A stretch of 64,000 nucleotides of DNA from Streptomyces sp. NBC_01317 (GTDB lineage Bacteria; Actinomycetota; Actinomycetes; Streptomycetales; Streptomycetaceae): positions 1,364,001 through 1,428,000 of the forward strand of contig NZ_CP108393.1 in the NCBI RefSeq assembly GCF_035961655.1. Direction: 5' to 3'. This document shows positions 5,439 through 64,000 of the stretch, in pieces (the first letter of the stretch is position 1; every line of letters begins with the position of its first letter). Both the position numbers and the translations under genes were made by a program. The notes under the pieces were generated by a model that had not been told where the DNA came from, did not search any database, and saw nothing but the letters and a program-made list of their open reading frames with translations.

Positions 5439-6275
5439 ATGGCAGTCCCCGGACCCGCACCCGCCCCCGCATCCGCCCCGGCCCCGTCCGTCGGCCCCCT
5501 GTTGCGCGACTGGCGCCGGCGGCGCCGGATCAGTCAGCTCGATCTGGCCCTGCGGGCGGATTCGTCCGCCCGGCACATCAGCTTCGTCGAGACGGGCCGC
5601 TCACGCCCCAGCGAGGAGATGGTGCTGCGGCTGGCCGAGCACCTCGATGTGCCGGTCAGGGAGCGCAACGCCCTGCTGCTGGCGGCCGGTTACGCGCCCC
5701 GGTACACGGAGACGACGCTGGACGACCCGGCCATGGACGTCCTGCGCGAGGGCCTGACCGAGCTGTTGCGGGCGTACGAGCCGTATCCGGCGGTGATCGT
5801 GGACGGGACGTACACGGTGGTGGCCGCCAACCGGGGCATCGCCCTGCTGATGGAGGGCCTGCCCGAGCACCTGCTCGCCCCGCCGCTGAACGTCATGCGG
5901 ATCACTCTCCACCCGGAGGGGCTCGCCCCGCGCATCCTCAACCTGCACGAGTGGCGGGGGCATCTGCTGGACCAGATGGAACGCCAGCTGGCCCTCTCCC
6001 GCTCCCCCGCCCTGCGTGAGCTGTACGACGAGGTGGCGGCGTACCCCATACGCCCGGCCGGGATCCGGACGCCGACGCACGGGGCACAGGGACCCGTACT
6101 CCCGGGCTTCGCGCTGCCGCTGCGCATCGGGCACGACGGCCATGAGCTGTCCTTCCTCTCGACCATCGCCACGTTCAACACGCCGATGGACGTCACCGTC
6201 GCCGAACTGGCCATGGAAACCTTCCTCCCGGCCGACCCGGCGACGGCCAAGTACCTGGCGTCGGTGACCACGTAG
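5439..6275 (+). CDS. XRE-family HTH regulator, MmyB type
   Basis: 278-aa regulator. After a Pro/Ala-rich start, an XRE helix-turn-helix spans roughly residues 18-80 (LLRDWRRRRRISQLDLAL, then the family signature HISFVETGRSRPS). Residues about 105-270 form the MmyB-like ligand-binding domain (PAVIVDGTYTVVAANRG, LHPEGLAPRILN, TFNTPMDVTVAELAMETFLPAD). The ATG at 5439 is preferred because upstream codons are shadows of the divergent pterin dehydratase region. MmyB-type proteins often control an adjacent reductase gene, but none is adjacent here, so its target is unclear. Confidence 0.92.
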   Translation: MAVPGPAPAPASAPAPSVGPLLRDWRRRRRISQLDLALRADSSARHISFVETGRSRPSEEMVLRLAEHLDVPVRERNALLLAAGYAPRYTETTLDDPAMDVLREGLTELLRAYEPYPAVIVDGTYTVVAANRGIALLMEGLPEHLLAPPLNVMRITLHPEGLAPRILNLHEWRGHLLDQMERQLALSRSPALRELYDEVAAYPIRPAGIRTPTHGAQGPVLPGFALPLRIGHDGHELSFLSTIATFNTPMDVTVAELAMETFLPADPATAKYLASVTT

Positions 6276-6285
6276 TCGGCGGCGG

Positions 6286-6762
6286 TCATTCCATGGCGGG
6301 TGGTGGGGGCGGGGCGGGCGCGCGTACCTTGCGCCGGGGCCGGGTCGCCCGGGCCACGCAGGCCGTGGCCAGGGCGGTCAGGAGCAGGGCCAGGGCCCAG
6401 TTGACGGGGTAGTCGAGCGGCAGCACGGTGGGGTTGTTCGGCTTTCCGGGGCGGAGCATCAGCGGCAGCGCGAGCAACGTCAGGCAACCGGCCGTCAGCA
6501 GGCCGCCGCGCAGGGCCGTACGGGATCGGGAGCGTCCGACGAACAGCCCGGCCCCGAGGACCAGCGGCACGAGCAGCCCGTCGTGCAGGGCGACCGCGCC
6601 CGCGAGCCACAGCGCCACGTTCAGGGGGTCGCCGGGGCGGGTGAGGGTGAGGAGTTCGTACGCGCCGAAGCCGAGGGCCGCCACGCCGAGGGAGCCGACG
6701 GCGATGCGGGCGATGGTGGCGGTGGGCGAGGCGGGGGTGGTCGGAGTGTCGTTCCGGGGCAT
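6286..6762 (-). CDS. small integral membrane protein, partner of Mo oxidoreductase
   Basis: 158-aa hydrophobic protein with about four predicted membrane spans and a basic C-terminal tail ending in a Pro run. It has no recognised domain. The segment LAGAVALHDGLLVPLVL resembles VGAAVLHDLVLAPLYAL in the membrane protein encoded at 10865-11407, so the two are probably paralogues. Its ATG shares one base with the stop of the upstream oxidoreductase gene (TGATG), which implies translational coupling and a shared function, perhaps as membrane partner or electron-transfer subunit. That role is inferred from context only. Confidence 0.8.
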   Translation of the reverse strand: MPRNDTPTTPASPTATIARIAVGSLGVAALGFGAYELLTLTRPGDPLNVALWLAGAVALHDGLLVPLVLGAGLFVGRSRSRTALRGGLLTAGCLTLLALPLMLRPGKPNNPTVLPLDYPVNWALALLLTALATACVARATRPRRKVRAPAPPPPPAME

Positions 6763-7919
6763 CAGAGCACCTCCAGTCGTGTGACCCACTTCGTCTGGAG
6801 CACCCCGGGCCGGTTCGGCGCGATGATCCGGGCCGGATAGCCGTGGTCGGGCGCCAGGATCTCGCCGTTGAGGCGCAGCGCCAGCAGGGTGAGCCCGTCG
6901 CGGGTGTACGCGCTGTCCATCGCGGTCACGCCGTATCCGCCGTGGCGCTGCATCGAGACGATCCGCAGCGACGCGCCGTCCGGCAGTCCCGCGCGGGCCA
7001 GCAGGTCCTTGATCCGGACGCCTTCCCAGTGGGCCGACTTGGACCAGCCCTCGACGCAGGCCAGGGGCAGTTCGACGCGGGTCTGCGGCATCGCGCGGAG
7101 TTCGGCGAGGGTGAGTTCGTACGGCTTCGGTCCGCCGACCCGCAGCCGCCACCCGCGCAGGTCGTCGGGGGTGATGCCGGCGGCCTTGGCCGTGCGGTTG
7201 ACCGGCAGGCCCTGCGGACCGACGCGCGGGTCCCGTGGGGCGAGGAGCACCAGCTTCCGCAGCGGGGTGACGGACTGTCCGGCGGAGACGAGCGTGACCG
7301 CGCCGACCGACGCGGCGAGGCCGAGCAGCAGCGAGCGCCGCTCGGCGCCGGCCGTGGCCACTTCGCCCGCCGCCTCCCGCGCGTCGAGACGCGTCGTCGC
7401 CCGTGAGGTACGGCGCCAGTGCGCGGCGATCACGGGGGCCTTCACGGCGAGGTGGACGAGCAGCGCGCCGATGATGACAAAGGCCAGCGCCCAGTGGACA
7501 GCCCGGAAGGGAAAGGGCCAGGGATACCACTGAATGGTGTTGAGGAGTCCCATGAACAGTTCGAGCAGGGTGGCGGCGACCAGAACGGCGATGGAGATCC
7601 GTTCCCCCGCGTGCGCGACGGAACGGATCGGAGGCCACTCGAAAAGCCTCGGACAGACCGTCCAGAGTTTCACCAGAAGCAGGGGAATCGCGGCGATCCC
7701 GCTGATGACATGGAGGCTCTGGGTGACGCGGTAGCCGGAGACAGGCCTGGTGGGGAGGTGCCCGGCCGCCCAACCAGGTGGTTCCTGGAGGTAATGGCTG
7801 GTGACACCCGTGACAAAGCAGACCAGAATCGCGAGTCCGAGCCATCGGCCCACCGCCGTCGCCGTGCGCGGGTCGTGCAATCGGCCTCTGAATCGGGGGA
7901 GGAAAGGCGGGGTACGCAT
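6762..7919 (-). CDS. membrane-anchored molybdopterin-dependent oxidoreductase
   Basis: 385-aa fusion. Residues about 20-215 are a four- to five-helix cytochrome b-like membrane domain with several His candidates for heme (QSLHVISG, AVHWALAF, LLVHLAV). A further hydrophobic segment (LLLGLAASVGAVTLVSAG) precedes a C-terminal sulfite-oxidase-fold domain. Cys288 in LACVEGWSK is the expected molybdenum ligand, and DHGYPARIIAPNRPG is a typical cofactor-pocket motif. I chose the ATG at 7919, which has GGAA upstream. The layout resembles a fusion of an MsrQ-like membrane unit to an MsrP-like catalytic unit, but the substrate is not determined. A paralogue is encoded at 9606-10877. Confidence 0.88.
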   Translation of the reverse strand: MRTPPFLPRFRGRLHDPRTATAVGRWLGLAILVCFVTGVTSHYLQEPPGWAAGHLPTRPVSGYRVTQSLHVISGIAAIPLLLVKLWTVCPRLFEWPPIRSVAHAGERISIAVLVAATLLELFMGLLNTIQWYPWPFPFRAVHWALAFVIIGALLVHLAVKAPVIAAHWRRTSRATTRLDAREAAGEVATAGAERRSLLLGLAASVGAVTLVSAGQSVTPLRKLVLLAPRDPRVGPQGLPVNRTAKAAGITPDDLRGWRLRVGGPKPYELTLAELRAMPQTRVELPLACVEGWSKSAHWEGVRIKDLLARAGLPDGASLRIVSMQRHGGYGVTAMDSAYTRDGLTLLALRLNGEILAPDHGYPARIIAPNRPGVLQTKWVTRLEVL

Positions 7920-8010
7920 ATCCGTATTCCACGCCGTTTCCGGTGCGGGGTGAAGGGGATCGAGGATTACGGAAAACTGACATCCGCATTCTCCACGCCC
8001 GCGCATTCGC

Positions 8011-9444
8011 TCACCAGAATGTGAGCAGCAGATGATTGACGGCCAGTCCGACGGCGGCCTGGGCCAGCAGCCAGCGCCGGTGGTCCCGGGCGGGCAGCAG
8101 GGCGGCGGTCGCCGGAAGCCAGAGGGTGAAAGGCAGCCAGATGCGTTCCGTCTCGGCCTTGCTCATCCCGGACAGATCGGCGGCGGCCACCGCCAGCAGG
8201 AGGGCGGCGACCAGCAGCACCACCGCCCCGTCGCCGGTGACCGGTCCGCCCCGCCGCAGCCGCCGCAGCGGATCGGGTGCGGCGGCCAGGGCCCGGCGCA
8301 TCCCGGCGGCGGAGGCGAGACCGGTGGCGATCACCACATTGGCCAGATTGCCCCACACCCAGTAGGCGTACGGGCGTTCGCCTCCCACGCCCTGGTAGTA
8401 ACGCTCCACGAGCAGGTCGTACGCCTCCCACCAGCGGAAACCGGCCAGGATGAAGGTGACGGCCACAGCGAGGAATCCCAGTGCCAGGAGGGGCAGGGGC
8501 CGTGCGGTACGGGTCAGCAGCAGGATCGCCGCGACCGGGACCGCCATCAGGGTGAGCCCGTACGAGAGGTGGACGATCCAGCCGAGGAGCAGTCCCGCCG
8601 CCAGGGCCGTCGCGTACGGGGCGCGGACGGTACGGGTCGCGGACAGGGTCAGCAGGGCGAGGGCCCAGGCCCCGACAGCGGCGAAGTACGCGTCGGCGGA
8701 GGCGCCGACCCAGACGGCGGCCGGGGTGAGGACGAGGAAGGGCGCGGCGGCGCGGGCGGCCCGCTCGGCGTCCAGCGCGCGCAGCGTGACGAGCACGGCG
8801 ACCACCGCCGAGGTGCCGGTGAGGATACAGAACGTGGCCGCCCACGCCCCGCCGCCCAGGCCGATCCGGTCGAGGCCGACGAAGGTCAGGACGGCGCCGG
8901 GCGGATGGCCGGCGATGTGCGTCGGCCAGTTGTCGGGCGAGTCGAGGAGGATGTGGGCGGTGTAGCCGCGCAGGGCGGCCCCGATGTCCTGGAAGCGGTC
9001 GACCCCGCGCAGGTATTCGTGGACGGTGTCGAGCCGGCCCGCGACGCCCCGCTGCCAGCCGTCCACCAGCGCCAGCGACCAGGTCCAGGCCAGGGCCGCC
9101 GCCCAGCTCGCGGCGAGGAGCCGCCGCCAGGGCAGCCGGGCCGCGAGGGCGGGGCCGTACAGGACGACCAGGACGGCGACGACCAGGGCGGGGAGGGTGC
9201 CGGGGCCGGTGTGCGGCAGCCACTCGGCCAGGAGAGGGGGCCACTGGACGTGCAGGGTCCCGTACCGGTCCTGGATCACGGCACCGATCACGGCGGCGGC
9301 GGTGACGAGGAGGGCGGCGGCTCCGGCGGCGAGCACGTCGGCACGGCGGCCTGTGCCGGCTGCGGGTCCGGCGTGGCCCTCCGGTGGGGCTTCGCGTGGC
9401 GCGGGAGGCGCGGGGTGCGGGTCGGGGTGGGGAAGCGGGGTCAC
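8011..9444 (-). CDS. polytopic membrane protein, possible GT-C-type glycosyltransferase
   Basis: About 477 aa with roughly ten or more hydrophobic spans. A large extracytoplasmic-type loop follows the second or third span and carries GHPPGAVL, a motif seen in integral-membrane sugar transferases and related uncharacterised actinobacterial proteins. No catalytic assignment is possible from sequence alone. The start is uncertain. I prefer the GTG at 9444, which lies 7 nt after a TAACGT box; an upstream GTG at 9501 would add 19 residues rich in Pro. The gene lies between two outward-facing Mo oxidoreductase modules and is divergent from the one at 9606. Confidence 0.75.
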   Translation of the reverse strand: MTPLPHPDPHPAPPAPREAPPEGHAGPAAGTGRRADVLAAGAAALLVTAAAVIGAVIQDRYGTLHVQWPPLLAEWLPHTGPGTLPALVVAVLVVLYGPALAARLPWRRLLAASWAAALAWTWSLALVDGWQRGVAGRLDTVHEYLRGVDRFQDIGAALRGYTAHILLDSPDNWPTHIAGHPPGAVLTFVGLDRIGLGGGAWAATFCILTGTSAVVAVLVTLRALDAERAARAAAPFLVLTPAAVWVGASADAYFAAVGAWALALLTLSATRTVRAPYATALAAGLLLGWIVHLSYGLTLMAVPVAAILLLTRTARPLPLLALGFLAVAVTFILAGFRWWEAYDLLVERYYQGVGGERPYAYWVWGNLANVVIATGLASAAGMRRALAAAPDPLRRLRRGGPVTGDGAVVLLVAALLLAVAAADLSGMSKAETERIWLPFTLWLPATAALLPARDHRRWLLAQAAVGLAVNHLLLTFW

Positions 9445-52335: not shown

Positions 52336-52551
52336 TCAGCTCCGCGCGGTGTTGTCGCCCGCCTCCCCGGCCCCCTCGCCCGCGCCCGCCTTCTCGCGCA
52401 TCTTGCGCACCAGCTCCGCCTTCTGGTCGGCCGCGCCCTGGCGGTCGAGGTTCCGGTGCGGACCGTTGTTCTGCCGTTCGGTGCGGGACAGCTTCTTGCG
52501 CTGGCCGCCGCCCATGCCCACGGGGTTGTTGATGTTCTTGCTCACGGTCAC
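52336..52551 (-). CDS. small basic hypothetical protein (DUF6243-like)
   Basis: 71-aa hydrophilic protein with KNINNPVGMGGGQRKKLSR and PHRNLDRQGAADQKAELVRKM, a pattern I recall from the DUF6243 family of actinomycetes. It is Lys/Arg-rich and probably partly disordered. I chose the GTG at 52551, 5 nt after GGGAG; GTG at 52545 or an ATG at 52584 are alternatives. Its stop is 3 nt from the convergent neighbour. Confidence 0.75.
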   Translation of the reverse strand: MTVSKNINNPVGMGGGQRKKLSRTERQNNGPHRNLDRQGAADQKAELVRKMREKAGAGEGAGEAGDNTARS

Positions 52552-52653
52552 GGGTTCTCCCGGTGGTGATGTGAAGTGATCCACGGATCTCGGCTTGCCA
52601 AGGGTACGAGCCCGGTGGGGCGTCCGCCGCTCGCGGGAAGGGCACGGGGCCGC

Positions 52654-53193
52654 TCACGTCACCATCTCGGCGGTGATCGCCCAGCGTTCGTGGTCACGCC
52701 ACGCGCCGTCGATGAGGAGGAAGTCCGGGGAGAACCCCTCCAGGCGGAAGCCCGCCCGGCGCACGAGCGCGAGGGAGGCGGCGTTCGCGGGCTGGATGTT
52801 GGCCTCCAGGCGGTGCAGGCCCAGCGGGCCGAAGGCGTGGCGGATCACCAGGCCCAGCCCTTCCGAGAGCAGGCCGCGCCCGGCCGCGTGGGCGAAGGCC
52901 CCGTAGCCGAGGGCTCCGCTCCGGAAGGCGCCCTGGACGATGTTGTTGATGTTGATGAAGCCGGCGACGCGGTGGTCGTCCCGCGCGCGGACGAGGAATC
53001 CGGTGCGGGTGGGGTCCTCGATGAGGCGGCGCGCGTACGGCGTGTAGTCCTCGGCGCGGGTGGGCGGGAAGAGCCAGGGGTGGTGCAGTTCCCGGCTCTC
53101 GCGGGCGAGCGAGGTGAACTCGTCCATGTCCTCATGGCGGTACGGGCTCAGGTAGGTGCGCGGACCTTCGGCCAGGTCAGGGCTGTCGGGCAT
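52654..53193 (-). CDS. GNAT-family N-acetyltransferase (RimJ/RimL type)
   Basis: 179-aa acetyltransferase. The acetyl-CoA site shows in HAAGRGLLSEGLGLVIRHAF, and LHRLEANIQPANAASLALVRRAGFRLEG is the RimJ/RimL signature. Targets of this group include ribosomal protein N-termini, peptides and amino compounds. It is the last gene of the minus-strand peptidase run, 58 nt after the LD-carboxypeptidase gene. In that setting it might acetylate released peptides or amino acids, which is speculation. Confidence 0.93.
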   Translation of the reverse strand: MPDSPDLAEGPRTYLSPYRHEDMDEFTSLARESRELHHPWLFPPTRAEDYTPYARRLIEDPTRTGFLVRARDDHRVAGFININNIVQGAFRSGALGYGAFAHAAGRGLLSEGLGLVIRHAFGPLGLHRLEANIQPANAASLALVRRAGFRLEGFSPDFLLIDGAWRDHERWAITAEMVT

Positions 53194-53251
53194 CCCCTCA
53201 GCGTACTGCCGGCGCCCCGGGCGGGGTCGGCGCCGCTCACACCAGCGCCGC

Positions 53252-54187
53252 TCAGACCAGCGCCGGTACGTCCAGGGTCAGCGTCCCGCGCCCCGCGTCG
53301 AGCGTCCCCGGCACCCCCAGCGGCATCGTGAGGTTCGTCGGGCCGTGCCCGAAGCCCATCTCCTCCGCGACCGGTACGCCGAGCCCGCCCAGCCGGTCCC
53401 GCAGCACCGTCCGCACCTCGTCGTACGGGCCGCACTCCGCCCAGGACCCGAGGCCGATCCCGGCCACCCCGTCCAGCACGCCGGAGCGCAGCAGCTGGGT
53501 CAGGATGCGGTCCAGGCGGTACGGCTCCTCGCCGGTGTCCTCGATCAGCAGCAGCCCGCCGGCCGTGGTGGGCCGTGCGTACGGGGTCCCGAGGCCGGCG
53601 GCGAGCAGGCTGACGCAGCCGCCGAGGGTGACCCCCCTGGCCCGGCCGGGGACCAGCGCGCCGGCCGTCGGGCCGCCGCCGAGGGTCATCACCGACTCGG
53701 GCTCGAAGAGCGTGGCCCGCAGCGACTCCTGGGTGTCGGTGTCCTTGAGGAAGGTCATGGCGGCGACCATCGGGCCGTGGAGCGTGGCCAGGCCCATCCG
53801 TACGGCGAAGGCCTCGTGCAGCGCCGTGATGTCGCTGTACCCGACGAAGACCTTGGGCCCTGCGGCCCGCAGGGCGGTCCAGTCGAGCAGGTCCACCATG
53901 CGCTGGACTCCGTAGCCGCCGCGCGCGCAGAGCACGGCGGACACGCTCGGGTCGCACCACGCCTCCTGGAAATCGCGGGCCCGGTCCGCGTCCGTGCCCG
54001 CGAGATACCTGAACTCGTCGTGCCGGTCGAGGACATGGGGCGCGACGACCGGGTCGAGGTCCCAGCCGCGCAACAAGTCCAGGCCCGCGTCCAGCCGTTC
54101 GGCGGGCAAGGGCCCGCTGGGCGCCACGACGGCGACCTTCGCTCCGGGGCGCAGTCGCGCGGGCCGGGTCAGAGGGGTGACGGTCAC
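53252..54187 (-). CDS. LD-carboxypeptidase (peptidase family S66)
   Basis: 311-aa cytoplasmic serine peptidase. The nucleophile is Ser118 in VGYSDITALHEAF, the Glu is in LLLIEDTGEEPY, and the His is in GFGHGPTN; CARGGYGVQRM precedes the nucleophile as usual. S66 enzymes remove D-Ala from the L-Lys/mDAP position of murein tetrapeptides, or act on microcin C-like peptides (MccF). The GTG start overlaps the stop of the S9 peptidase gene by 4 nt, so the two are coupled. Presence beside DppA favours a murein peptide recycling role. Confidence 0.92.
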   Translation of the reverse strand: MTVTPLTRPARLRPGAKVAVVAPSGPLPAERLDAGLDLLRGWDLDPVVAPHVLDRHDEFRYLAGTDADRARDFQEAWCDPSVSAVLCARGGYGVQRMVDLLDWTALRAAGPKVFVGYSDITALHEAFAVRMGLATLHGPMVAAMTFLKDTDTQESLRATLFEPESVMTLGGGPTAGALVPGRARGVTLGGCVSLLAAGLGTPYARPTTAGGLLLIEDTGEEPYRLDRILTQLLRSGVLDGVAGIGLGSWAECGPYDEVRTVLRDRLGGLGVPVAEEMGFGHGPTNLTMPLGVPGTLDAGRGTLTLDVPALV

Positions 54188-56232
54188 CGGGAGAGCTCCA
54201 GCTTCGGGACGTCGGTCCTGGCGAACCGGAACGTCTGTGCGTACAGGGACAGTTCGGCCTCCAGCGCACGGATCATCGTGGCCGCCTTCCGGAATCCGTG
54301 GCCTTCGCCCTCGAAGGTGAGGTACGCGTGCGGGATGCCACGCCCGGCGGTCCTGGCGAGGAACCTCTCGCACTGCTCGGGCGGGCAGATGACGTCGTCG
54401 AGCCCCTGGAGCAGGAGGAACGGCGAGGTGATCCGGTCGACTTGGTTGATGGGCGACCGGTCGCGGTAGCGGTCGGGGACCTCCACGATCGGACCGATCA
54501 GCGATTCCAGGTACTGGGACTCGAAGTCGTGTGTCCCGTCGGTGGCCCAGCCCTCCAGGTCGAGGATGGGGTAGCTGATGGTGCCGCAACCGTAGACGCC
54601 GGTGGCGGCGAGGGAGGCCGCCGCGGTCCAGCCGCCGGCGCTGCCGCCCCGTACCGCCAGCCGTGCTCCGTCGGCGGTGCCCTCGGCGGCCAGCGCCCGG
54701 GCGACGGCCGCGCAGTCCTCGACGTCGACCACGCCCCACTGCTCGCGCAGCCGGTCGCGGTACTCCCTGCCGTAGCCGGTGGAGCCGCCGTAGTTGACCT
54801 CCACGACGCCGATGCCCCGCGAGGTGAAGTAGGCGATCTCCAGGTCGAGGACGAGCGGGGCACGGCCCGTGGGCCCGCCGTGCGCCCACACCACGTAGGG
54901 CGGCAGCTCGCCGTCGGGCGCGGCGGTGTCGGGGCTGTACGGCGGGTAGACGTGGGCGTGGACGTCGCGCCGGCCGGGTCCGGTGAAGGTGCGGATCTGC
55001 GGCTCGGGGTAGTAGGCGGGGTCGACCGGGTCCCGGTGGGCCTCGCCGATGACCCGGGCGCGGCCGGTGACGGTGTCCAGTTCCACGATCTCGTACCCGG
55101 ACCGGGGTCCCGCCGCGACGCCGATCACCCGGTCGCCCCGGACGGTGAGGTCGGCGGCCCATTCGGTCCACGGCCCGGCGGTGTCCACGACGTCGCCGGT
55201 CTCCGGGTCCAGTATCCCCAGCGCGTTGGCGCCCTTGCCGTGGATGACGGCGATCATGCCGTTCGCCAGCGGGTGGAACCACCGCAGGCCGATCTTCCAG
55301 AGCGGTCCGCCGAACTCCTCGCGGCGGCCGGGGCTCAGCGGGGTGGCCGGGGGCAGGGGGGCGGGGCCGCCGCCCGGCGACGGGACGGGGCCGGACAGCG
55401 CCGCGTCGAGGCCGAGGCGCTGGATCTCCCACCAGTTGCCGATGTCCGAGACGAGGAGCAGCGCGCCGTCCGGGGACCAGTCGACCTGGGCCACCGACTC
55501 GCCGACGCCTCCGGCGACGGTCCTGACGCCGGTGAAGGGGCCGGTCGGCCCGGTGTCGGCCGGTGCCACCGCGCCGAGTTGGACGACCGTGCCGTCCCAG
55601 GGCATCCGGGGATGGTCCCAGGCGATCCAGGCGACGTGGGCGCCGTCGGGCGAGAGCCGGGGCCCGGTGACGAAGCGGTGCCTGTCGTCGGACAGTTCCC
55701 GTACGGCGGTACGGTCCCCGGCGGCGGAGCCGTCGAGCGGGACGGCGGCGATCACCCGCCGTACGTCGGTGGGCCGTTCGCCGGTGAACTCCTCCAGGAC
55801 ACACCAGACTTCGCCGCGCTCCCGCTCGATGCGCGGGTCGGCCCACCGCAGGCCGCCGCCGGTGGCGGACACCGGAGTGAGGGGGCGGGGTTCGCCGCCG
55901 CCGTCCGGCTCGTACGCGTACAAGCGCTGGTCGGGGAAGTGGACGAAGACGATCAGCGGTCCGCCGTCGGGGCGCTCGGTGCCGGCCCAGGGCACCCCGC
56001 CGTACTCGATGACCCGGCTGCGGACGTTCCACGGCGGGGGCAGCACGGACTCCTCACGGCCGTCGGGATGCCGGCGCACGAGGGCGCGGCGGCCGTCCTC
56101 GGCGGGCCGTGGCGCGGTCCACCACAGCTCGTCGCCGACCGCCCCCACGTACTCGGGCCGGCCGTCGTGCGACGCGGCGAGGGTGGCGTCGATCGGCGAC
56201 GGCCACGTTCCGTAGGCCCCCATGGGCACCAT
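54184..56232 (-). CDS. prolyl-oligopeptidase-family serine peptidase (S9C-like)
   Basis: 682-aa protein without signal peptide. An N-terminal beta-propeller occupies about residues 20-410 (repeated strands such as RLSPDGAHVAWIAWD and VDWSPDGALLLVSD). The alpha/beta-hydrolase domain has Ser531 in RGGSAGGW, Asp in GLDDVICPPEQ and His in EGEGHGFR. The family includes acylaminoacyl peptidases and dipeptidyl peptidases. GGAGAG 6 nt upstream fixes the ATG at 56232; an earlier ATG at 56238 is less well placed. It lies 60 nt after the M20 gene and overlaps the S66 gene. Confidence 0.94.
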   Translation of the reverse strand: MVPMGAYGTWPSPIDATLAASHDGRPEYVGAVGDELWWTAPRPAEDGRRALVRRHPDGREESVLPPPWNVRSRVIEYGGVPWAGTERPDGGPLIVFVHFPDQRLYAYEPDGGGEPRPLTPVSATGGGLRWADPRIERERGEVWCVLEEFTGERPTDVRRVIAAVPLDGSAAGDRTAVRELSDDRHRFVTGPRLSPDGAHVAWIAWDHPRMPWDGTVVQLGAVAPADTGPTGPFTGVRTVAGGVGESVAQVDWSPDGALLLVSDIGNWWEIQRLGLDAALSGPVPSPGGGPAPLPPATPLSPGRREEFGGPLWKIGLRWFHPLANGMIAVIHGKGANALGILDPETGDVVDTAGPWTEWAADLTVRGDRVIGVAAGPRSGYEIVELDTVTGRARVIGEAHRDPVDPAYYPEPQIRTFTGPGRRDVHAHVYPPYSPDTAAPDGELPPYVVWAHGGPTGRAPLVLDLEIAYFTSRGIGVVEVNYGGSTGYGREYRDRLREQWGVVDVEDCAAVARALAAEGTADGARLAVRGGSAGGWTAAASLAATGVYGCGTISYPILDLEGWATDGTHDFESQYLESLIGPIVEVPDRYRDRSPINQVDRITSPFLLLQGLDDVICPPEQCERFLARTAGRGIPHAYLTFEGEGHGFRKAATMIRALEAELSLYAQTFRFARTDVPKLELSR

Positions 56233-56292
56233 GGACAACTCTCCTAAGCGGACTGAGGGTGGTGGCCCTGCGCGGACCGAAGACAGTGATCC

Positions 56293-57657
56293 CTACGCGG
56301 ACCGGAGGTAGTGGTCGAGGACACGGACACCGAAGTGGAGCGCCGAGACGGGGACCCGTTCGTCGACGCCGTGGAAGAGCGCCTGGTAGTCGAAGCCGGG
56401 TGGCAGCTTGAGGGGCGAGAAGCCGTAGCCGGTGATCCCGAGGCGGGAGAACTGCTTGGCGTCCGTACCACCCGACATGCAGTACGGCACGACGTGCCCC
56501 GCCGGGTCGAACCGCTCGACGGCCGCCCGCATCTTGGCGAACGCCGGTGAGTCCACGGGGGCTTGGAGGGCGATCTCCCGGTGGTGGAACTCCCACTCGA
56601 CGTCGGGCCCGGTGAGCAGGTCCAGGGTGGCGCTGAACTCCTCCTCGCCGCCGGGCACCATCCGCCCGTCGACCAGCGCGGTGGCCTGCCCGGGAATCAC
56701 ATTGACCTTGTAACCGGCCTCCAGGACCGTCGGGTTGGCGCTGTTGCGGATCGTCGGCTCGACCAGCGCGGCGGCCGGCCCCAGCTTGCCCAGGAGGTCG
56801 TCCGGGTCGAAGCCCGGGGCGTCCACATCGGTCTCCACCCCATGGAGGACGGCCAGTTCACGCAGGGCGGCCCGGACGGTCGGGGTGAGCCGGACCGGCC
56901 ACTCGTGGTCGCCGATCCTGGCGATGGCGGCGGCGAGCCTGCTGACCGCGTTGGCGCGGTTGACCTTGGAGCCGTGTCCCGCCTTGCCGTGCGCGGTGAG
57001 CTTGAGCCACCCCGTGCCGCGTTCGCCGGCCGCGATCGGGTAGAGCGCCATGCCGGGGCCCGCGTGGAGGGTGAAGGCGCCCGATTCGCTGATGCCCTCC
57101 GTACAGCCCTCGAACAGCTCCGGGTGATGGTCGGCGAGGAAGCCCGAGCCGTCGACGGCGCTGGCCTCCTCGTCGGCGGTGTAGGCGATCACGATGTCGC
57201 GGCGCGGCCGGACGCCCGACCTGGCCCAGGCGCGGACGACGGAGAGCACCATCGCGTCCATGTTCTTCATGTCGACCGCGCCCCGGCCCCACACCACCCC
57301 GTCCCTGACCTCCCCGGAGAAGGGGTGGAGGGTCCAGTCGGCGGGTTCGGCGGGCACCACGTCCAGGTGGCCGTGGACGAGGAGCGCCTCGGCGGAGGGG
57401 TCCGTGCCCTCGATCCTGGCGACCACGTTGGTACGGCCCGGGGTCCGCTCGATCAGGGTGGGTTCGAGCCCCGCGCCGGCGAGCCGTTCGGCGACGTACT
57501 CGGCCGCCGGGCGCTCCCGGCAGTCGCCGCTCCCTCGGTTGGTGGTGTCGATGCGGATCAGGTCGGAGGTGAAGGTGACCACCTCGTCCAGCGCCACCGC
57601 GTCGAGTGCGTCGATCGTGTCGCTGGGCGTCGTGTCGCTGGGCGTCATGTCAGCCAT
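56293..57657 (-). CDS. M20-family metallopeptidase (DapE/ArgE-type dipeptidase)
   Basis: 454-aa binuclear zinc peptidase. Ligand and catalytic motifs are HGHLDVVP, the bridging Asp in GRGAVDMKN, TADEEAS, and a late His in LFHGVDERVP. The dimerisation lid lies between (GKAGHGSKVNRANAV). It probably cleaves dipeptides or N-acylated amino acids in the cytoplasm. GGAGGAG is 4 nt before the ATG. It overlaps the dppA stop by 8 nt, part of the same operon. Confidence 0.95.
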   Translation of the reverse strand: MADMTPSDTTPSDTIDALDAVALDEVVTFTSDLIRIDTTNRGSGDCRERPAAEYVAERLAGAGLEPTLIERTPGRTNVVARIEGTDPSAEALLVHGHLDVVPAEPADWTLHPFSGEVRDGVVWGRGAVDMKNMDAMVLSVVRAWARSGVRPRRDIVIAYTADEEASAVDGSGFLADHHPELFEGCTEGISESGAFTLHAGPGMALYPIAAGERGTGWLKLTAHGKAGHGSKVNRANAVSRLAAAIARIGDHEWPVRLTPTVRAALRELAVLHGVETDVDAPGFDPDDLLGKLGPAAALVEPTIRNSANPTVLEAGYKVNVIPGQATALVDGRMVPGGEEEFSATLDLLTGPDVEWEFHHREIALQAPVDSPAFAKMRAAVERFDPAGHVVPYCMSGGTDAKQFSRLGITGYGFSPLKLPPGFDYQALFHGVDERVPVSALHFGVRVLDHYLRSA

Positions 57658-58486
57658 ACTGCTCCTCCACCGCGGCCGAGACGATCGTGGTGACCGCCTT
57701 GAAGGTGCGAATGCCCTCGTACATCGTCCCGCTGGTGTACACGACGCGGCGTTCGCCCGTGGCGGCGACCCCCGGAACCACGGTGGCGGCCGAGGCGAGA
57801 TGGGCGGCGTCGAACTCCAGCTCGACGGTGAAGGGACCGGCGGGGGCCGGTTCGTACCGTACGGCGAGCGCCGTGGCCTCCTTCGCCGCCGCGCGGATGT
57901 CGGCAGCGGTACGAGCCGGGGTGCGGCACACCGCGGCGTACCGCGAGACGTGGTCCTTCACCGCGACCTTGCGGGCCCCCGGCGCGTAGCCGTCCGCGTC
58001 CGCGCAGGTCAGGTCGTCGCCGGTGACCAGGACCACCGGGACGCCGTACTCGGCGACAACGGCCGCGTTCAGCACTCCCTCGCTCGCGCGTGTGCCGTCG
58101 AGCCACACGCCGGTGATCGAGTTGGCGAGGTAGGTGTGCGCGAGGACCCCTTCCGTACCGGCGCCGGTGTGGTAGCCGACGAAGGCGATGCCGTCGACAT
58201 CGCCGTGCTGGACCCCCTCCACCATGGAGAGTGACTTGTGACGCCCCGTCAGCAGCTGTGCCCGATCATCCAGTTGCTCCAGGAGGAGATTGCGCATGGT
58301 CCAGTGCGCCTCGTTGATGAGTACGTCGTCGGCGCCGCCGTCGAGAAAACCGAGCACGGCGGCGTTCACGTCGGAGGTGAACAGGGCGCGGCAGCGCTCC
58401 CACTGCGGCGTGCCGGGCAGGACGTCGGCCGGCCAGGTCACGCCGGTCGCGCCCTCCATGTCGGCGCTGATGAGGATCTTTACCAT
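57650..58486 (-). CDS. dppA: D-aminopeptidase DppA-like (peptidase family M55)
   Basis: 278-aa zinc peptidase. Metal ligands visible are Asp9 and Glu11 in SADMEGATG, His61 in NEAHWTMRN, and His106 in VGYHTGAG. In Bacillus subtilis DppA releases D-Ala from D-Ala-containing peptides in an operon with a dipeptide transporter and the S66 enzyme YkfA. Here the S66 partner is present but the transporter is not. The start overlaps the stop of the TetR-type receptor gene by 7 nt, so expression is probably tied to that regulator. Confidence 0.92.
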   Translation of the reverse strand: MVKILISADMEGATGVTWPADVLPGTPQWERCRALFTSDVNAAVLGFLDGGADDVLINEAHWTMRNLLLEQLDDRAQLLTGRHKSLSMVEGVQHGDVDGIAFVGYHTGAGTEGVLAHTYLANSITGVWLDGTRASEGVLNAAVVAEYGVPVVLVTGDDLTCADADGYAPGARKVAVKDHVSRYAAVCRTPARTAADIRAAAKEATALAVRYEPAPAGPFTVELEFDAAHLASAATVVPGVAATGERRVVYTSGTMYEGIRTFKAVTTIVSAAVEEQYG

Positions 58487-59169
58487 GCGCCAGTCCTATC
58501 GCAGGTGACCGCCGGTACGCACGGGCGCACCCGCTCCAGCAGTCCGGCCGCGTCGGGGCGCGCCTGGAGCCCGGACAGCAGCAGCAGCCACAGGTCCCGG
58601 AGCCTGTCCTCGATGTACTCCCGGCCGTCGAGCGCGTCCGAGACGGTGTGGAGACCGAAGAACGCGTACACGACCCCGTGCGCGGCCACGCCGGGGTCCA
58701 GGTGCGGGTTGAGCTCCCCCCCGGCGCGGGCCTGTTCGAGGAGCGTGGTGACCGTGGCGAGCCAGCCGACGAACGGGGCGGGCAGCGGGGCGTCGATCGC
58801 GGTGCGCTCGGCCCAGAGGCGGGCGCCGGCCCGGACGACGACGTCGTCGCGGAACGCCTTCGCCACGTCGAAGCTCAGTCCGACGAGCCGGTCGAGCGCG
58901 GGGCGCTCCGCGGTGAGGTATTCCCCGACCAGCTCGGGCCAGGTCGCGAAATGCGCCTCGACGATCGCGAGGGCGAGTTTTTCCTTGCTGACGTAATGGA
59001 AGTAGATGGCTCCGCTGGTACGGCCGGACTCCGCGCTGATGTCGCTGATACTGGTCCCGGCGTATCCCCGCTCATCGAACAGGCGTGCTGCCGCTTCCAG
59101 AAGAAACCTACGCGTGTTTTTCGCCCTAGCCTGCACGTGCACTCCGAGTCCCGATTCCGCTGCTGACAT
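58480..59169 (-). CDS. TetR-family gamma-butyrolactone/butenolide receptor-like regulator
   Basis: 229-aa regulator. The N-terminal HTH (FLLEAAARLFDERGYAGTSISDISAESGRTSGAIYFHYVSKEKLA, taken in parts) and the segment DVVVRAGARLWAER are typical of ArpA/ScbR receptors of diffusible signals. The gene is divergent from an AfsA homologue, the classic pairing. Its stop overlaps dppA, so it heads the peptidase operon. The ATG at 59169 follows TACATT after 5 nt with no ribosome site, suggesting a leaderless transcript. A GTG at 59142 is an alternative start. Confidence 0.92.
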   Translation of the reverse strand: MSAAESGLGVHVQARAKNTRRFLLEAAARLFDERGYAGTSISDISAESGRTSGAIYFHYVSKEKLALAIVEAHFATWPELVGEYLTAERPALDRLVGLSFDVAKAFRDDVVVRAGARLWAERTAIDAPLPAPFVGWLATVTTLLEQARAGGELNPHLDPGVAAHGVVYAFFGLHTVSDALDGREYIEDRLRDLWLLLLSGLQARPDAAGLLERVRPCVPAVTCDRTGAW

Positions 59170-59247
59170 CACGCAATGTAGTGCTTTCCGCCAATGCCGC
59201 GACAACGCTGGCGTGCAGATCCCGAGAAATTGGGATTGTTTTATTTC
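59170..59247. promoter_or_regulatory. divergent promoter region of receptor and AfsA-like genes
   Basis: This 78-nt stretch is clearly richer in A+T than its surroundings. TACATT (59180-59175 on the minus strand) is a -10 candidate for the receptor gene. GATTGTTTTATTTC just before 59248 may serve the AfsA-like gene. I do not see a clean autoregulatory-element palindrome within it. Confidence 0.5.
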
Positions 59248-60198
59248 ATGATGGATTTGTTCGATGAACTCGGCGGTGACTCCCGACCGCTGAGCTGGTC
59301 GCGCACGGTCGCCCGCGAGACGGTCCACCGGGCCTCGGTCGCGGAGGTGCTCCTGACCGACGTACGGCAGGCGGGGGACGGCCGCTTCGAGGCCGCCGCG
59401 TGCTGGCCGCGGTCGCATCCCACCTTCCCGCGCGGCGGCACGGACCTCCACAGCCCCCTGATGGTCGTGGAGACCCTGCGCCAGCTGGGCATCTACCTGC
59501 CCCTGCGCCACTACGGCGTCGCGCCGGACGCCCGGCTGCTGATCACCGATCTCTTCTTCCGCCTCGACCCGTCGGCCGAGCCCCGGGCGGCCTTCGGCGC
59601 CACCGAGGTCACCTGCCTGGCCACCGTCAGCGAGGTGCGGCGCGGTCCTGGCGGCGGCGTGACGGGGCTGCGCCTGGAGGTGGCGTTCCTGGCCGGCGGG
59701 CGAGCGTTCGCGCTGGCCGGCGGGGGTGCGCTCTTCCTGGACGAGGAGCGGTACGGCGCGGTACGCGCGGGGCGGGCCGGAACCGTCGCCCCCGGGGCGA
59801 CGCCGACGGGCCGGCCGTACCCGGACGCCGTGACGGTGGGGGTGCACACCCCGCACGACGTCCTGGTCACCCACGGCACGCGGCCCCTGCGGGCCGGCGG
59901 TCCCGCTCCGGACGACGTACTGCTCGTGGAGCCCGCCGACCCGCGCCACCCGTTCTTCTTCGACCACGCGTCGGACCACGTGCCCGGCATGGTCCTGCTG
60001 GAGGCGGCACGGCAGGCGGCCGCCCGGCAGAGTGGCGGAACGTTGCTTCGCCCTACCGCCGGACGGCTGAAAGCCGCGCGGTTCACCGAATTCGATCCGC
60101 CCGCGCGCATTCTCTGCGTGCCACACCACTCGACCTGCGTCTTCCGCGTCCTGCAAGGGGGCGAACAGAAAGCATTCGGCACCCTGCACTACCGGTGA
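59248..60198 (+). CDS. AfsA-family gamma-butyrolactone/butenolide biosynthesis protein
   Basis: 316-aa protein with two hot-dog-like AfsA domains. The first starts at VHRASVAEVLLTDV and includes SHPTFPRGGTDLHSPLMVVETLRQLG. The second includes HPFFFDHASDHVPGMVLLEAARQAA, very close to the ScbA/AfsA signature. The family condenses a beta-ketoacyl chain with dihydroxyacetone phosphate to start signal synthesis. The start is uncertain: ATG 59248 or 59251, or an ATG at 59194 that would overlap the likely promoter. No ribosome site is clear. Confidence 0.93.
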   Translation: MMDLFDELGGDSRPLSWSRTVARETVHRASVAEVLLTDVRQAGDGRFEAAACWPRSHPTFPRGGTDLHSPLMVVETLRQLGIYLPLRHYGVAPDARLLITDLFFRLDPSAEPRAAFGATEVTCLATVSEVRRGPGGGVTGLRLEVAFLAGGRAFALAGGGALFLDEERYGAVRAGRAGTVAPGATPTGRPYPDAVTVGVHTPHDVLVTHGTRPLRAGGPAPDDVLLVEPADPRHPFFFDHASDHVPGMVLLEAARQAAARQSGGTLLRPTAGRLKAARFTEFDPPARILCVPHHSTCVFRVLQGGEQKAFGTLHYR

Positions 60199-60364
60199 AC
60201 ACCCTCGTCACGATCCGTGCCTCCTTGACTACGTCGAGTCGCCGTCCTTAGCGTAGCGATCGTTATGTTTTCGGCGGGCGCCGGATGAACACACTCCGCG
60301 CGCCCGCCACCCAAAGCCGCCCTCTCGGGCGCCACTCCCCTACGCGAACGGACAAGAAATCGAA

Positions 60365-61072
60365 ATGACGGCTTCTCGCATCCTTTCCTGGACCCCCGCG
60401 GCCATTGTTTTCGACTGCGACGGCACACTGATGGACACCGAACGGCATTGGCAGGACGCCCGCGACCTCGTCCTCGACGGGTACGGCTTCGCTCCCGCCC
60501 CCGGATTCGCGGAACGGGCCAAAGGCCTGCACTACACCGAGTGCGGCACCCTCATGGCGGTCGAGTCGGGACGCCCCGACCTGGCCGGGGACATGACGTC
60601 CCAGCTGCTCACGGAGTTCCGGTCGCTCGTCGCCGAGCAGCCGATGACCATGCCCGGCGCCCGGGAACTGGTCCATGACGTACGGCGGTTCGCGCCGCTG
60701 GCCGTCGCCAGCAACTGCCCGGCCGAGGTGGTCGAGTCCTGCCTCGACACGGCGGGGCTGCTCGACTGCTTCGACCACATCGTGGTCCCGGACGGCACCA
60801 TCAGGCCCAAGCCGCACCCGGACGTCTACCTCACGGCCGCCAAGCTGTGCGGCGTCGACCCGGCCGACACCCTGGCCGTCGAGGACTCGCACTGCGGCGT
60901 CCAGGCAGCGGTAGGGGCCGGCATGCGCGTCCTCGGGGCGGGCTCCTGGCCGAGCCCCGAGACGGTGGCCCTGGTGGACCTGTGGGTCCGCGCCCTGGAC
61001 AACCCGGAGGTACGGCTCTGGGCCTGCGACCGCATCCCCAGCCAGGCCCAGGGAGGCGTACCGGCCAGCTAG
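60365..61072 (+). CDS. HAD-superfamily hydrolase (beta-phosphoglucomutase-like phosphatase)
   Basis: 235-aa phosphatase. Motif I is VFDCDGTLMDTE with nucleophile Asp near residue 17, motif II VASNCPAE, motif III the Lys in RPKPHPDVY, and motif IV VEDSHCGVQA. An alpha-helical cap lies between motifs I and II. It follows the AfsA-like gene by 166 nt on the same strand. The butenolide pathway needs a phosphatase to remove the DHAP-derived phosphate, so this gene is a candidate; a housekeeping role is equally possible. The ribosome site is weak (ACAAGAAA). Confidence 0.9.
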   Translation: MTASRILSWTPAAIVFDCDGTLMDTERHWQDARDLVLDGYGFAPAPGFAERAKGLHYTECGTLMAVESGRPDLAGDMTSQLLTEFRSLVAEQPMTMPGARELVHDVRRFAPLAVASNCPAEVVESCLDTAGLLDCFDHIVVPDGTIRPKPHPDVYLTAAKLCGVDPADTLAVEDSHCGVQAAVGAGMRVLGAGSWPSPETVALVDLWVRALDNPEVRLWACDRIPSQAQGGVPAS

Positions 61073-61128
61073 CACGCCGACGCGGGTCAGGTGCGGGACC
61101 GCCGGGAGCCGGCCCCGCGCACCACGCA

Positions 61129-61192
61129 GTCGCCGTCGCCGTCGCCGTCGCTGTCGCTGTCGCTGTCGCAGGCGCAGTCGCCGTCGCCGTCG
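61129..61192. repeat. hexanucleotide GTCGCC/GTCGCT microsatellite
   Basis: About ten copies of GTCGCC or GTCGCT lie between the converging HAD and dhaL genes. Read on the minus strand they encode alternating Asp with Gly or Ser. A frame from an ATG near 61228 would give a short hydrophobic start and an Asp-rich tail ending at 61087, but no ribosome site supports it. Confidence 0.75.
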
Positions 61193-61304: not shown

Positions 61305-61982
61305 CTACCGGGCCGCCGGAGTGGGTTCCTCCAGATACGGTGCCAGGGTCGTGACGCTCTCGCCGGACGACGAGAACAGCAGCGCGATGCCCACCGCGCC
61401 CGGGTCCGGCACCCCTGAGGCATGTTCCCCCACGTAGCTGGCCCGGCCCCGTCGGGCCCGTAGGCCGGCCGTGTCCCGTACGCCCTCCCAGGAGGCGGCG
61501 GCCGCACGCGACAGCGCCTTCCTCGGGTCCCCCTTCCGGTCGCACGACCGCAGGGCGTCGCAGGCGGGTGCCAGCGCGTCGACCAGTGTCTTGTCGCCGG
61601 GAGCGGCCTCCCCGACCCGCCGGATCGCCGACAGGCCACCGCCCGCGCCGGCGGCCAGCGCGCTCACGGTCAGCTCGGGCCCCGCGTCCGTGGCGGCCAC
61701 CGCCAGTTCGTGGAAGAGCAGCCCGAACAGCGGTCCGCTCGTCCCTCCCACCTCGTCGAGGAAGGCCGTGGCGGCGGCGCGCAGGGGGCCCGCCGGGTCC
61801 GCGGGACCGGTGGGCGCGTCGCCGAGGAAGCGGAGTGTGGCGTCCAGTCCCGCCATGAGGTTGGTGCCGAAGTCGCCGTCCCCGGCCGCCTGGTCGAGCG
61901 CGGTCAGTTCGGCCTCGGTGGCGGAGACGGATGCCGCGAAGCGCCGCATCCAGCCGTCGGTGAACGTTCCGTCCACGTGCAT
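61305..61982 (-). CDS. dhaL: dihydroxyacetone kinase subunit DhaL
   Basis: 225-aa nucleotide-binding subunit. The ADP/Mg site is seen in DQAAGDGDFGTNL near residue 30, followed by EVGGTSGPLFGLLF and GDKTLVDALAPA. DhaL transfers phosphate to dihydroxyacetone bound on DhaK. It follows dhaK by 61 nt on the same strand. A DhaM phosphotransferase subunit, usual in the PTS-dependent version, is not encoded in the 232 nt before the HAD gene. AGGA lies 4 nt before the ATG. Confidence 0.93.
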   Translation of the reverse strand: MHVDGTFTDGWMRRFAASVSATEAELTALDQAAGDGDFGTNLMAGLDATLRFLGDAPTGPADPAGPLRAAATAFLDEVGGTSGPLFGLLFHELAVAATDAGPELTVSALAAGAGGGLSAIRRVGEAAPGDKTLVDALAPACDALRSCDRKGDPRKALSRAAAASWEGVRDTAGLRARRGRASYVGEHASGVPDPGAVGIALLFSSSGESVTTLAPYLEEPTPAAR

Positions 61983-62043
61983 GGCGTCCTGCCTCTCTTC
62001 GGGTCGGCGGCGCTGCCGCCCAGGTCGACGGAGAGCGGTCGGC

Positions 62044-63042
62044 TCAGCGGGGCCAGGCAGCGGTACGGGCGGGGGCGTCGAAGAGCTTGACCGTCTCGGC
62101 GTCCGCCACCATCACGGACAGGGAGAAGCCCCGCATGTCCAGCGCGGTGACAAAATCGCCCACCAGCACCCGCTCGGTGGTGATGCCGCGCGCGTCGAGG
62201 ACCCGGGCCGCGTCGGCCAGCACCGCGTACAGCTCCAATCGGGTGAGGGAACCGAGACCGTTGACCAGGAGGATCACGGACGCGCCCTTGCCGAGCCCCA
62301 GGGACTTCTCCAGCGCGCTCGCCATGTTCCCGACCAGCTCCCGGACCGGCTGCCGGGGGACGGTGTGGTCCGCGCGCTCGCCGTGGATCCCGACGCCGTA
62401 CTCCATTCGGTCGATCGGCAGCTCGAAGGCGGGCAGCCCCGTGGTGGGCGCGGTGTGCGACGCGGAGGCGACGGCGAGGCTCCGGCAGCGGGACACCAGG
62501 TCGGTCCCGAGGTCCGCCAGGTCACGCAGTCCCAGACCGGTGTCGGCGGCGGCCCCGAGCACCTTCTCGACCAGCACGGTCGCGCCCGTGCCGCGCCTGC
62601 CCGCCGCGATCTCCTCGGACTCCGAGGCGAGGTCGTCGTCGATCAGCACCCGGGTGCAGGCGATGCCCTCGTGGACGAGGCGCTCGGCCGCGATGCCGAA
62701 GTTGATGCGGTCGCCGGTGTAGTTCTTCACCAGATGGAGTACGCCGTCCTCGCGGGCCACCGCCCGGGACGCCATGAAGACCTGCCGGTTGTGCGGTGAG
62801 GCGAAGATCCGGCCCGGACAGGCCGCGTCCAGCATGCCCAGACCGACAAATCCCGTGTGCAGGGGTTCGTGGCCGGAACCGCCGCCCGACACCAGGCCCA
62901 CCCGTCTGGCGGGGGACGTGTGCAGGGCCCGTATGAAACCGTGCTCGACGTCGTGCGCCACCAGATCGGCGTGGGCCCGGGCGAAGCCGGCCAGCGCGTC
63001 GATGACCAAAGAGTCCGAACTGTTCCCGAAGTACAAGGCCAT
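62044..63042 (-). CDS. dhaK: dihydroxyacetone kinase subunit DhaK
   Basis: 332-aa substrate-binding subunit. GGGSGHEPLHTGFVG binds the ligand and His220 in YGVGIHGERAD is the residue that forms the hemiaminal with dihydroxyacetone. VKNYTGDRINF is also conserved. With DhaL it makes dihydroxyacetone phosphate, a precursor used by AfsA-type enzymes such as the one encoded 2.8 kb away. Central carbon metabolism of glycerol is the alternative role. Start at 63042 gives the usual ALYFGNSSDSLV N-terminus; 295 nt upstream hold no gene. Confidence 0.94.
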   Translation of the reverse strand: MALYFGNSSDSLVIDALAGFARAHADLVAHDVEHGFIRALHTSPARRVGLVSGGGSGHEPLHTGFVGLGMLDAACPGRIFASPHNRQVFMASRAVAREDGVLHLVKNYTGDRINFGIAAERLVHEGIACTRVLIDDDLASESEEIAAGRRGTGATVLVEKVLGAAADTGLGLRDLADLGTDLVSRCRSLAVASASHTAPTTGLPAFELPIDRMEYGVGIHGERADHTVPRQPVRELVGNMASALEKSLGLGKGASVILLVNGLGSLTRLELYAVLADAARVLDARGITTERVLVGDFVTALDMRGFSLSVMVADAETVKLFDAPARTAAWPR

Positions 63043-63230: not shown

Positions 63231-63350
63231 GTCCCGCTCACGCCCGGCCGGTCCCGCTCACGCCCGGCCGGTCCCGCTCACGCCCGGCCGGTCCCGCTCA
63301 CGCCGGGCCCGTACCGCTCACTCCCCACTCGTACCGCTCACTCCCGGGCG
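63231..63350. repeat. 20-bp tandem repeat, six units
   Basis: GTCCCGCTCACGCCCGGCCG recurs exactly three times from 63231, then three diverged units (GTCCCGCTCACGCCGGGCCC, then two starting GTACCGCTCACTCCC) run to 63350. The last unit overlaps the stop codon of the methyltransferase gene at 63338. Confidence 0.92.
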
Positions 63351-64000
63351 AGCACGAACCAGCGCGCCGGCAGGTCGATCCTGGTGCCGTCCGGCAGATG
63401 CTCCGTCTGCGGGAGCGCCGTGTCGCCGGTGTCCAGGATCTTCAGGCCCGCGGCGCGCAGCAGCCCGGGGACCTCCTCGTCGGCGGCCCCGGCCGGCCGC
63501 AGGCCGTGGTCGAAGACCCGCTGGAGTTTCGCGGGCGTGCCCGCCTCCACCGCCTGCTGGAACACCGCCTTCGAGGCGGACGTCAGTTCGACGACAAACG
63601 CCCGCCCCCGCGCCCCGAGGAGCCGCGCGACCGCCCCGGCGACCGCCGCGCGGTCCTGCGGCTCGCTCTGGTGGATGACGGCGCGCATGTAGACGTTGGT
63701 GTCACCCAGACGCTCCCCCAGGGCCTCCACCGCGCCCGCGTCGACCAGGTTCAGCTGTTCGTACGTGGCGGCCTCGGCCGTGTCCGCGCGGCGCGCGTGC
63801 TCCACCGCCGCCAGCGACAGGTCCACGCCGATCGCGCGGGCGAAGAGCGTCGCCAGATAGCGCGTCTGGGTGCCGCTGCCGCAGCCGAGGTCGACCACGG
63901 GCAGCGACACATCGGCGTACGGCAGCAGCAGAGCGCTGTGCGGTACGGAGCTGAGGGAGGCATCCGAGTCCCAGATGGCCTCCCCCGGCGCGTCGGAGGT
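63338..64000 (-). CDS. class I SAM-dependent methyltransferase, 5' part outside window
   Basis: The frame is open to the window edge, giving at least 220 residues. The visible part begins TSDAPGEAIWDSDASLSSVP, then motif I VVDLGCGSGTQTRYLA, an acidic loop IGVDLSLAAVEHA, and the tail LPDGTRIDLPARWFVLARE. The upstream codons lack stops and keep high G/C third positions, so the true start lies beyond 64000. The 3' end coincides with the 20-bp tandem repeat. Substrate unknown. Confidence 0.85.
   Translation of the reverse strand, partial: TSDAPGEAIWDSDASLSSVPHSALLLPYADVSLPVVDLGCGSGTQTRYLATLFARAIGVDLSLAAVEHARRADTAEAATYEQLNLVDAGAVEALGERLGDTNVYMRAVIHQSEPQDRAAVAGAVARLLGARGRAFVVELTSASKAVFQQAVEAGTPAKLQRVFDHGLRPAGAADEEVPGLLRAAGLKILDTGDTALPQTEHLPDGTRIDLPARWFVLARE

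Follow-up and report, generated by a model that had tools for sequence, protein, structure and literature searches.

Streptomyces sp. NBC_01317 carries a gene for a butyrolactone-type receptor that overlaps the first of several peptidase genes, raising the question whether a diffusible signal governs these peptidases or whether two unrelated sets of genes merely lie side by side. We examined this locus in a 64,000-nucleotide (nt) stretch of contig NZ_CP108393.1 (GCF_035961655.1, positions 1,364,001–1,428,000; hereafter the window, whose own numbering is used below) and in other Streptomyces genomes. The juxtaposition is lineage-specific: a signalling cassette of a familiar kind has come to lie beside a core operon. 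Our preferred reading, to which we assign a probability of roughly 0.45, is that the cassette abuts the promoter region of the core operon and that the peptidases would be read through from the receptor promoter, the signal raising their expression if the receptor represses itself. The features on which this reading turns are as follows.

58480..59136, minus strand: receptor gene of the ScbR/ArpA family; aligned cassettes from elsewhere favour the GTG start (curated ScbR_bind_reg model NF041196 matched over its full length, 207.8 bits, cut-off 150)
58480..58486, minus strand: overlap of the receptor stop with the dppA start, ATGGTAA (from the sequence)
58487..58503, minus strand: putative -10-like remnant of a dppA promoter element within the final receptor codons, TGCGATAGGACTGGCGC (from comparison of upstream regions)
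57650..58486, minus strand: dppA-like gene, peptidase family M55 (PF04951, 296.7 bits, 2e-88; structure 1hi9, E 1.3e-33)
56293..57657, minus strand: M20 metallopeptidase gene (PF01546; NF005913, 666.8 bits)
54184..56232, minus strand: S9 (prolyl oligopeptidase family) gene, with an in-frame TTG at 56238 as alternative start (PF00326, 4e-46; GGSAGG)
53252..54187, minus strand: S66 (LD-carboxypeptidase/MccF family) gene (PF02016, PF17676; GYSD)
52654..53193, minus strand: GNAT acetyltransferase gene, loosely associated (PF13302; at most 200 nt from S66 in 13 of 73 loci)
59137..59250, no strand: promoter region between the divergent receptor and afsA genes, without a recognised operator (gap comparison, palindrome and consensus searches)
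59251..60198, plus strand: afsA homologue, preferred start ATG 59251 (NF041195, 242.6 bits, cut-off 200; PF03756, Pfam AfsA, in two stretches)

Direct reading of the junctions confirmed the order, strands and spacings that a preliminary description of this DNA had given for receptor, dppA, M20, S9, S66 and GNAT genes. The receptor gene runs 7 nt into dppA, its stop TAA lying inside ATGGTAA; dppA and M20 overlap by 8 nt (57650–57657), 60 nt separate the M20 stop from the S9 ATG at 56232, S9 and S66 share 4 nt (GTGA, 54184–54187), and 58 nt lie between the S66 stop and the GNAT start. Four terminator-like sites were found in 52400–59400 (mean in shuffled sequence, 1.5), all on the plus strand, and a sigma-70 scan of the same interval returned no promoter (0.2 in shuffles), a weak test in high-GC DNA. 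Because the genes overlap and the minus strand has no terminator-like site, read-through is what one would most simply expect in this lineage, and co-transcription of the peptidases from the receptor promoter, as a lineage-specific arrangement, is plausible.

Both signalling genes exceed their NCBIfam cut-offs, so the ArpA/ScbR-like receptor and the divergent AfsA homologue stand as first described; among solved structures the receptor is related to CprB (E 3.6e-28) and AvaR1 (E 1.1e-25). Two of the gene starts first proposed are probably wrong, although the genes are real: the receptor probably begins at GTG 59136 rather than at 59169, and afsA at ATG 59251 rather than at 59194. These starts, preferred from orthologue alignments, leave a gap of 114 nt. 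The inventory of genes also held for those listed, while a HAD-family phosphatase gene behind afsA and the dhaKL genes beyond it had been missed. Between the window and its near-twin Streptomyces sp. SID3212 (L009; DppA 98% identical, contig ending inside afsA), dN/dS is 0.235 for the receptor, 0.118 for dppA and 0.11 for M20, which places the receptor under constraint, though less than dppA and M20. Elsewhere in genome G000, outside the window, one open frame of 822 residues carries two AfsA domain matches (C1:3526689-3527576), and two further AfsA loci with receptor matches next to them lie at 0.36 and 7.10 Mb.

Comparison across the genus separated the two partners. DppA matches were found in 148 of the 150 genomes of the dppA search sample; the loci named here are the best 80 of 549 confirmed relatives and are thus biased towards close DppA relatives. 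Of the 76 named loci that were long enough to judge, 74 kept the order dppA-M20-S9; S66 came next at 63 of 73. GNAT lay at most 200 nt from S66 at just 13 of those 73, so it is no firm member of the operon. Judged from these gene orders, the peptidase genes are an old, common core Streptomyces operon. AfsA homologues with E <= 1e-30 were found in 63 of 392 genomes (67 match rows, one of them the window's), and the flanks of 34 of the 66 other match rows were compared. The same receptor-afsA-HAD arrangement recurred at 28 of these 34 loci, and none of the 34 had dppA within the flanking DNA compared, which for L149 ends 58 nt past the receptor stop; by this comparison the receptor with afsA-HAD is a cassette separate from the peptidase operon. 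The genes 3' of the receptor are shared among closely related cassettes only, and between distant ones they vary and are often on the opposite strand.

A tblastn of the 80 named loci for a receptor at dppA, with or without the rest of the cassette, gave SID3212 and Streptomyces sp. 150FB (L012) only, and the cassette at dppA was seen in these two besides the window. When the count is limited to named loci that extend 1.5 kb or more upstream of dppA (76), 150FB alone has it. There the gene order, methyltransferase (MTase)-dhaK-dhaL-HAD-afsA-receptor-dppA, is that of the window, and the cassettes of the two are sisters in the tree (support 0.997). The idea that the receptor-headed order is conserved in relatives largely fell at this gene-order check, with two of 80 named loci and none of the 34 other AfsA loci showing it; on this distribution, the receptor-headed peptidase operon is lineage-specific and no conserved Streptomyces trait. 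A tree of the host operon groups L018, L019, L033, L037 and L079 with the window, and L010, L043 and L062 with 150FB; it omits L026, L058, L060, L067 and L082, which are fragmented or short, as well as any locus lacking an S9 match.

Many relatives have a promoter-like element upstream of dppA, for which we used the pattern CTG[GT], 18–21 nt, TANNN[T/C] and 4–10 nt to the start codon, picked post hoc after the sequences had been viewed; its spacing would fit the layout of a leaderless transcript. The complete element was found at 36 of 78 cassette-free loci, and the -10 part, whether or not the remainder was present, at 52 of 78; among 4000 stretches drawn at random from the same DNA the corresponding counts were 4 and 143. 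Only the -10-like part is matched in the window and SID3212, whose final receptor codons, TGCGATAGGACTGG, are followed by two letters and CATGG; similar letters occur in L014, L017 and other loci (TGCGATACAACTGG) and in the cassette-free L073 (GCGATAGGACTG). The -35-like part is absent from all three of the window, SID3212 and L073, and as L073 has no cassette, its absence in the window cannot be pinned on insertion. The element is complete in 150FB, where the receptor stop TAA belongs to its TAACCT, so the final receptor codons there would themselves be dppA promoter sequence. Among host relatives, the pattern is missing from those of 150FB (L010, L043, L062); in those of the window it is complete in L019 and L033 and missing from L018, L037 and L079. 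The receptors of the window and SID3212 differ at one position in the last 24 nt and at six in the preceding 30, and since the first 270 nt are identical, the low divergence of the receptor end is just a slight hint of constraint. On a separate dppA promoter, which would speak against the original idea, the picture is divided: the window retains the -10-like part only, but the element is common in the genus and complete in 150FB. Of 81 upstream regions, 13 (L019, L029, L048, L049, L053, L056, L058, L060, L061, L065, L076, L081 and L087) have a DnaA-box-like TT[AG]TCCACA just 5' of the promoter-like element.

Taken together, our preferred reading supposes that the cassette, a receptor gene divergent from afsA-HAD and here joined by dhaK-dhaL, sits between the MTase gene and dppA-M20-S9-S66, so placed that the receptor reading frame would now span the operon's own promoter region. 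Peptidase transcription would then probably be in good part read-through from the receptor promoter, with a contribution from the remains of the operon's own promoter. If, like its relatives, the receptor keeps its own promoter repressed while no signal is bound, peptidase expression would go up with the signal, with a possible effect on wall-peptide turnover; the operon of 150FB could well be transcribed independently.

Several observations weigh against this reading. Besides the post hoc choice of the dppA pattern, the full pattern is absent from 42 of the 78 cassette-free loci, 16 of which (such as L073) have the -10 part only, so the missing -35 in the window need not stem from insertion and the operon may have another promoter of its own. 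The host-operon tree separates the window from 150FB, and the presence of the cassette at dppA in two host clades would fit a single old insertion followed by losses and transfer between lineages alike. No convincing receptor operator was recognised at the receptor/afsA gap or at dppA, either among imperfect palindromes or with the published consensus sequences for SfbR (PMC7480387) and AvaR1 (PMC5744401). The best fits in the window gap have 5 (SfbR) and 4 (AvaR1) mismatches, and an operator of unlike sequence could escape; with no clear operator in the gap, we infer receptor autoregulation from the relatives. Chance-level matches were set aside: the imperfect palindromes in the gap, an SfbR-type site at 59104, within the receptor start, that has 3 mismatches (56 such in 64 kb), an AvaR1-type site with 3 mismatches in the SID3212 gap, and AvaR1-type sites with 2 mismatches at 60357, overlapping the HAD start, and 53505 (6 such in 64 kb).

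Much of this would suit a serious competing view, to which we give somewhat less than even odds, namely that the cassette landed by accident in a variable gap 5' of dppA and that the peptidases are independently controlled, with no regulatory link. The frequent lack of the full element at cassette-free loci, its completeness in 150FB, the unconserved genes 3' of distant receptors, a linkage limited to two of 80 named loci and the window, and a MTase-dppA gap whose content differs between species all agree with such an accident. The 7-nt overlap in the window lineage is harder to square with it, as is the linkage in two host clades with sister cassettes.

If the preferred reading is right, what the signal would reach is suggested by the protein families. 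The M55 protein is called DppA-like only, since it misses the cut-off of the Bacillus-type DppA equivalog (NF058634; 169.9 against 430 bits). Its nearest solved structure is that of B. subtilis DppA (1hi9), with which its DxE and His positions align; these we take to be the metal ligands. The M20, S9, S66 (both domains) and GNAT proteins all exceed their Pfam cut-offs. The S66 gene is 53252–54187, the listed open reading frame 53148–54269 being in a different frame, and its product contains GYSD, presumably the Ser nucleophile motif of family S66. The structures nearest to this protein are 1zrs and PA5198 (1zl0) at E about 3e-35, then muramoyltetrapeptide carboxypeptidase 6uuk at 1.8e-32, with MccF behind at 6.5e-21; the equivalog cut-off for muramoyltetrapeptide carboxypeptidase (PRK11253) is missed, at 132.1 against 378 bits. 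The earlier claim of kinship with cell-wall-peptide enzymes was thus borne out, muramoyl-tetrapeptide carboxypeptidases and Bacillus DppA being the closest solved structures. A simple window test detected no strongly hydrophobic N-terminus in the S66, S9 or M20 proteins. From the families, cytoplasmic recycling of wall peptides or D-peptides is the likely role of the peptidases, and signal control of wall-peptide turnover is put forward as a hypothesis.

On its other side, the afsA homologue is followed by these genes.

60365..61072, plus strand: HAD-family phosphatase gene 3' of afsA, a cassette member in 150FB and 28 other loci (PF13419)
61305..61982, minus strand: dhaL (TIGR02365, 141.3 bits, cut-off 138.3)
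62044..63042, minus strand: dhaK, less common type (PF02733)
63338..64000, minus strand: S-adenosylmethionine (SAM) methyltransferase gene, truncated where the window ends (35 of 76 named loci have a member of this family upstream of dppA)

The dihydroxyacetone kinase genes dhaL and dhaK are convergent with the afsA-HAD genes, and between the HAD gene and dhaL (about 61080–61180) lies a short-unit repeat with repeated Val-Ala in a plus-strand frame. The dhaK gene is of a second type, to which the genus-wide DhaK is about 45–50% identical, and which was found in 31 of 392 genomes at E <= 1e-110. It adjoins the cassette in the window, 150FB and genome G181 (L154), dhaK-dhaL occupying 61305–63042, 5565–7266 and 6800–8567 of the respective loci. 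On contig C807 of genome G102, the 3' part of afsA and a dhaK of the window's type, the only kinase gene seen there, lie within about 3.1 kb, with a gap sequence nearly that of L154. As the L154 cassette branches apart from those of the window and 150FB, the linkage occurs on two cassette branches. This dhaK was present in 5 of 10 genomes that have the cassette, compared with 14 of 150 (P 6.5e-4, uncorrected), and in a wider count in 12 of 30, compared with 31 of 392; because 9 of those 12 belong to one cassette clade in which the genes are unlinked, kinship may explain the count, and physical linkage alone was used. Dihydroxyacetone phosphate (DHAP) is the substrate of AfsA, and the arrangement hints that dhaKL could be a local DHAP supply; if confirmed, this neighbour would be a dedicated source of the synthase's substrate. 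No paper linking dihydroxyacetone kinase with AfsA and butyrolactone was found in the open-licence PubMed Central (PMC) literature.

At 35 of the 76 named loci that extend 1.5 kb or more upstream, a MTase gene of the window's family precedes dppA on the same strand, within 400 nt of it in 11. The gap between them is variable: L018 and L037 have a ribosomal-protection-like GTPase gene there and L031 has nothing, and a cold-shock-like gene precedes dppA in L010, L043 and L062; both gene names are our presumption from the starts of the proteins.

A bolder account, which we consider unlikely, would have the receptor of a relocating cassette overgrow and partly replace the core operon promoter, turnover becoming signal-dependent while DhaKL feeds DHAP to AfsA. 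Still less probable is the original idea in its full form, that the receptor directly represses the peptidase operon as part of a selected regulon, a diffusible signal turning on wall-peptide recycling: the overlap and gene order, the receptor dN/dS, the sister cassettes in two clades and the control of primary-metabolism genes reported for its relative AvaR1 (PMC5744401) would agree with it, but neither dppA nor the gap showed a convincing operator, and the linkage was not seen in nearly all relatives examined.

Like the ArpA/AfsA, ScbR/ScbA and BarA/BarX-type systems, the locus has an ScbR-family receptor adjoining a divergent AfsA homologue; it differs in heading a core peptidase operon, in having no autoregulatory element recognised in the gap and in its attached HAD and dhaKL genes. 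Known butyrolactone systems are usually located in antibiotic regions. The Bacillus subtilis dpp/ykf operon pairs DppA with the S66 enzyme YkfA, and here too M55 and S66 enzymes, probably acting on D-amino-acid peptides, are encoded together. Unlike it, the present operon has M20 and S9 genes and no transporter gene, and its DppA is below the equivalog cut-off. AvaR1 and AvaR2, of the same family as the present receptor, are pleiotropic receptors of S. avermitilis whose reported targets include primary metabolism (PMC5744401); the word peptidase does not occur in the main text of that paper, and three peptidase terms are absent from the main text of a paper on AdpA (PMC12466573). The link between receptor and peptidases had been thought undescribed, and in the open-licence PMC literature, which mostly lacks subscription journals, we found no paper, among the matches listed, connecting such a receptor with a peptidase operon, D-aminopeptidase or DppA, peptidoglycan or muropeptides, nor one connecting a leaderless transcript with D-aminopeptidase.

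If read-through is true, a quorum-type signal would gain control of core intracellular peptide recycling by settling at its promoter, and butyrolactone regulons might expand in this simple way. The complete element of 150FB and the -10-like part alone in NBC_01317 make the two strains a natural pair for comparison. If the genes are mere neighbours, the adjacency of a receptor and an operon in Streptomyces would be no proof of regulation without comparison.

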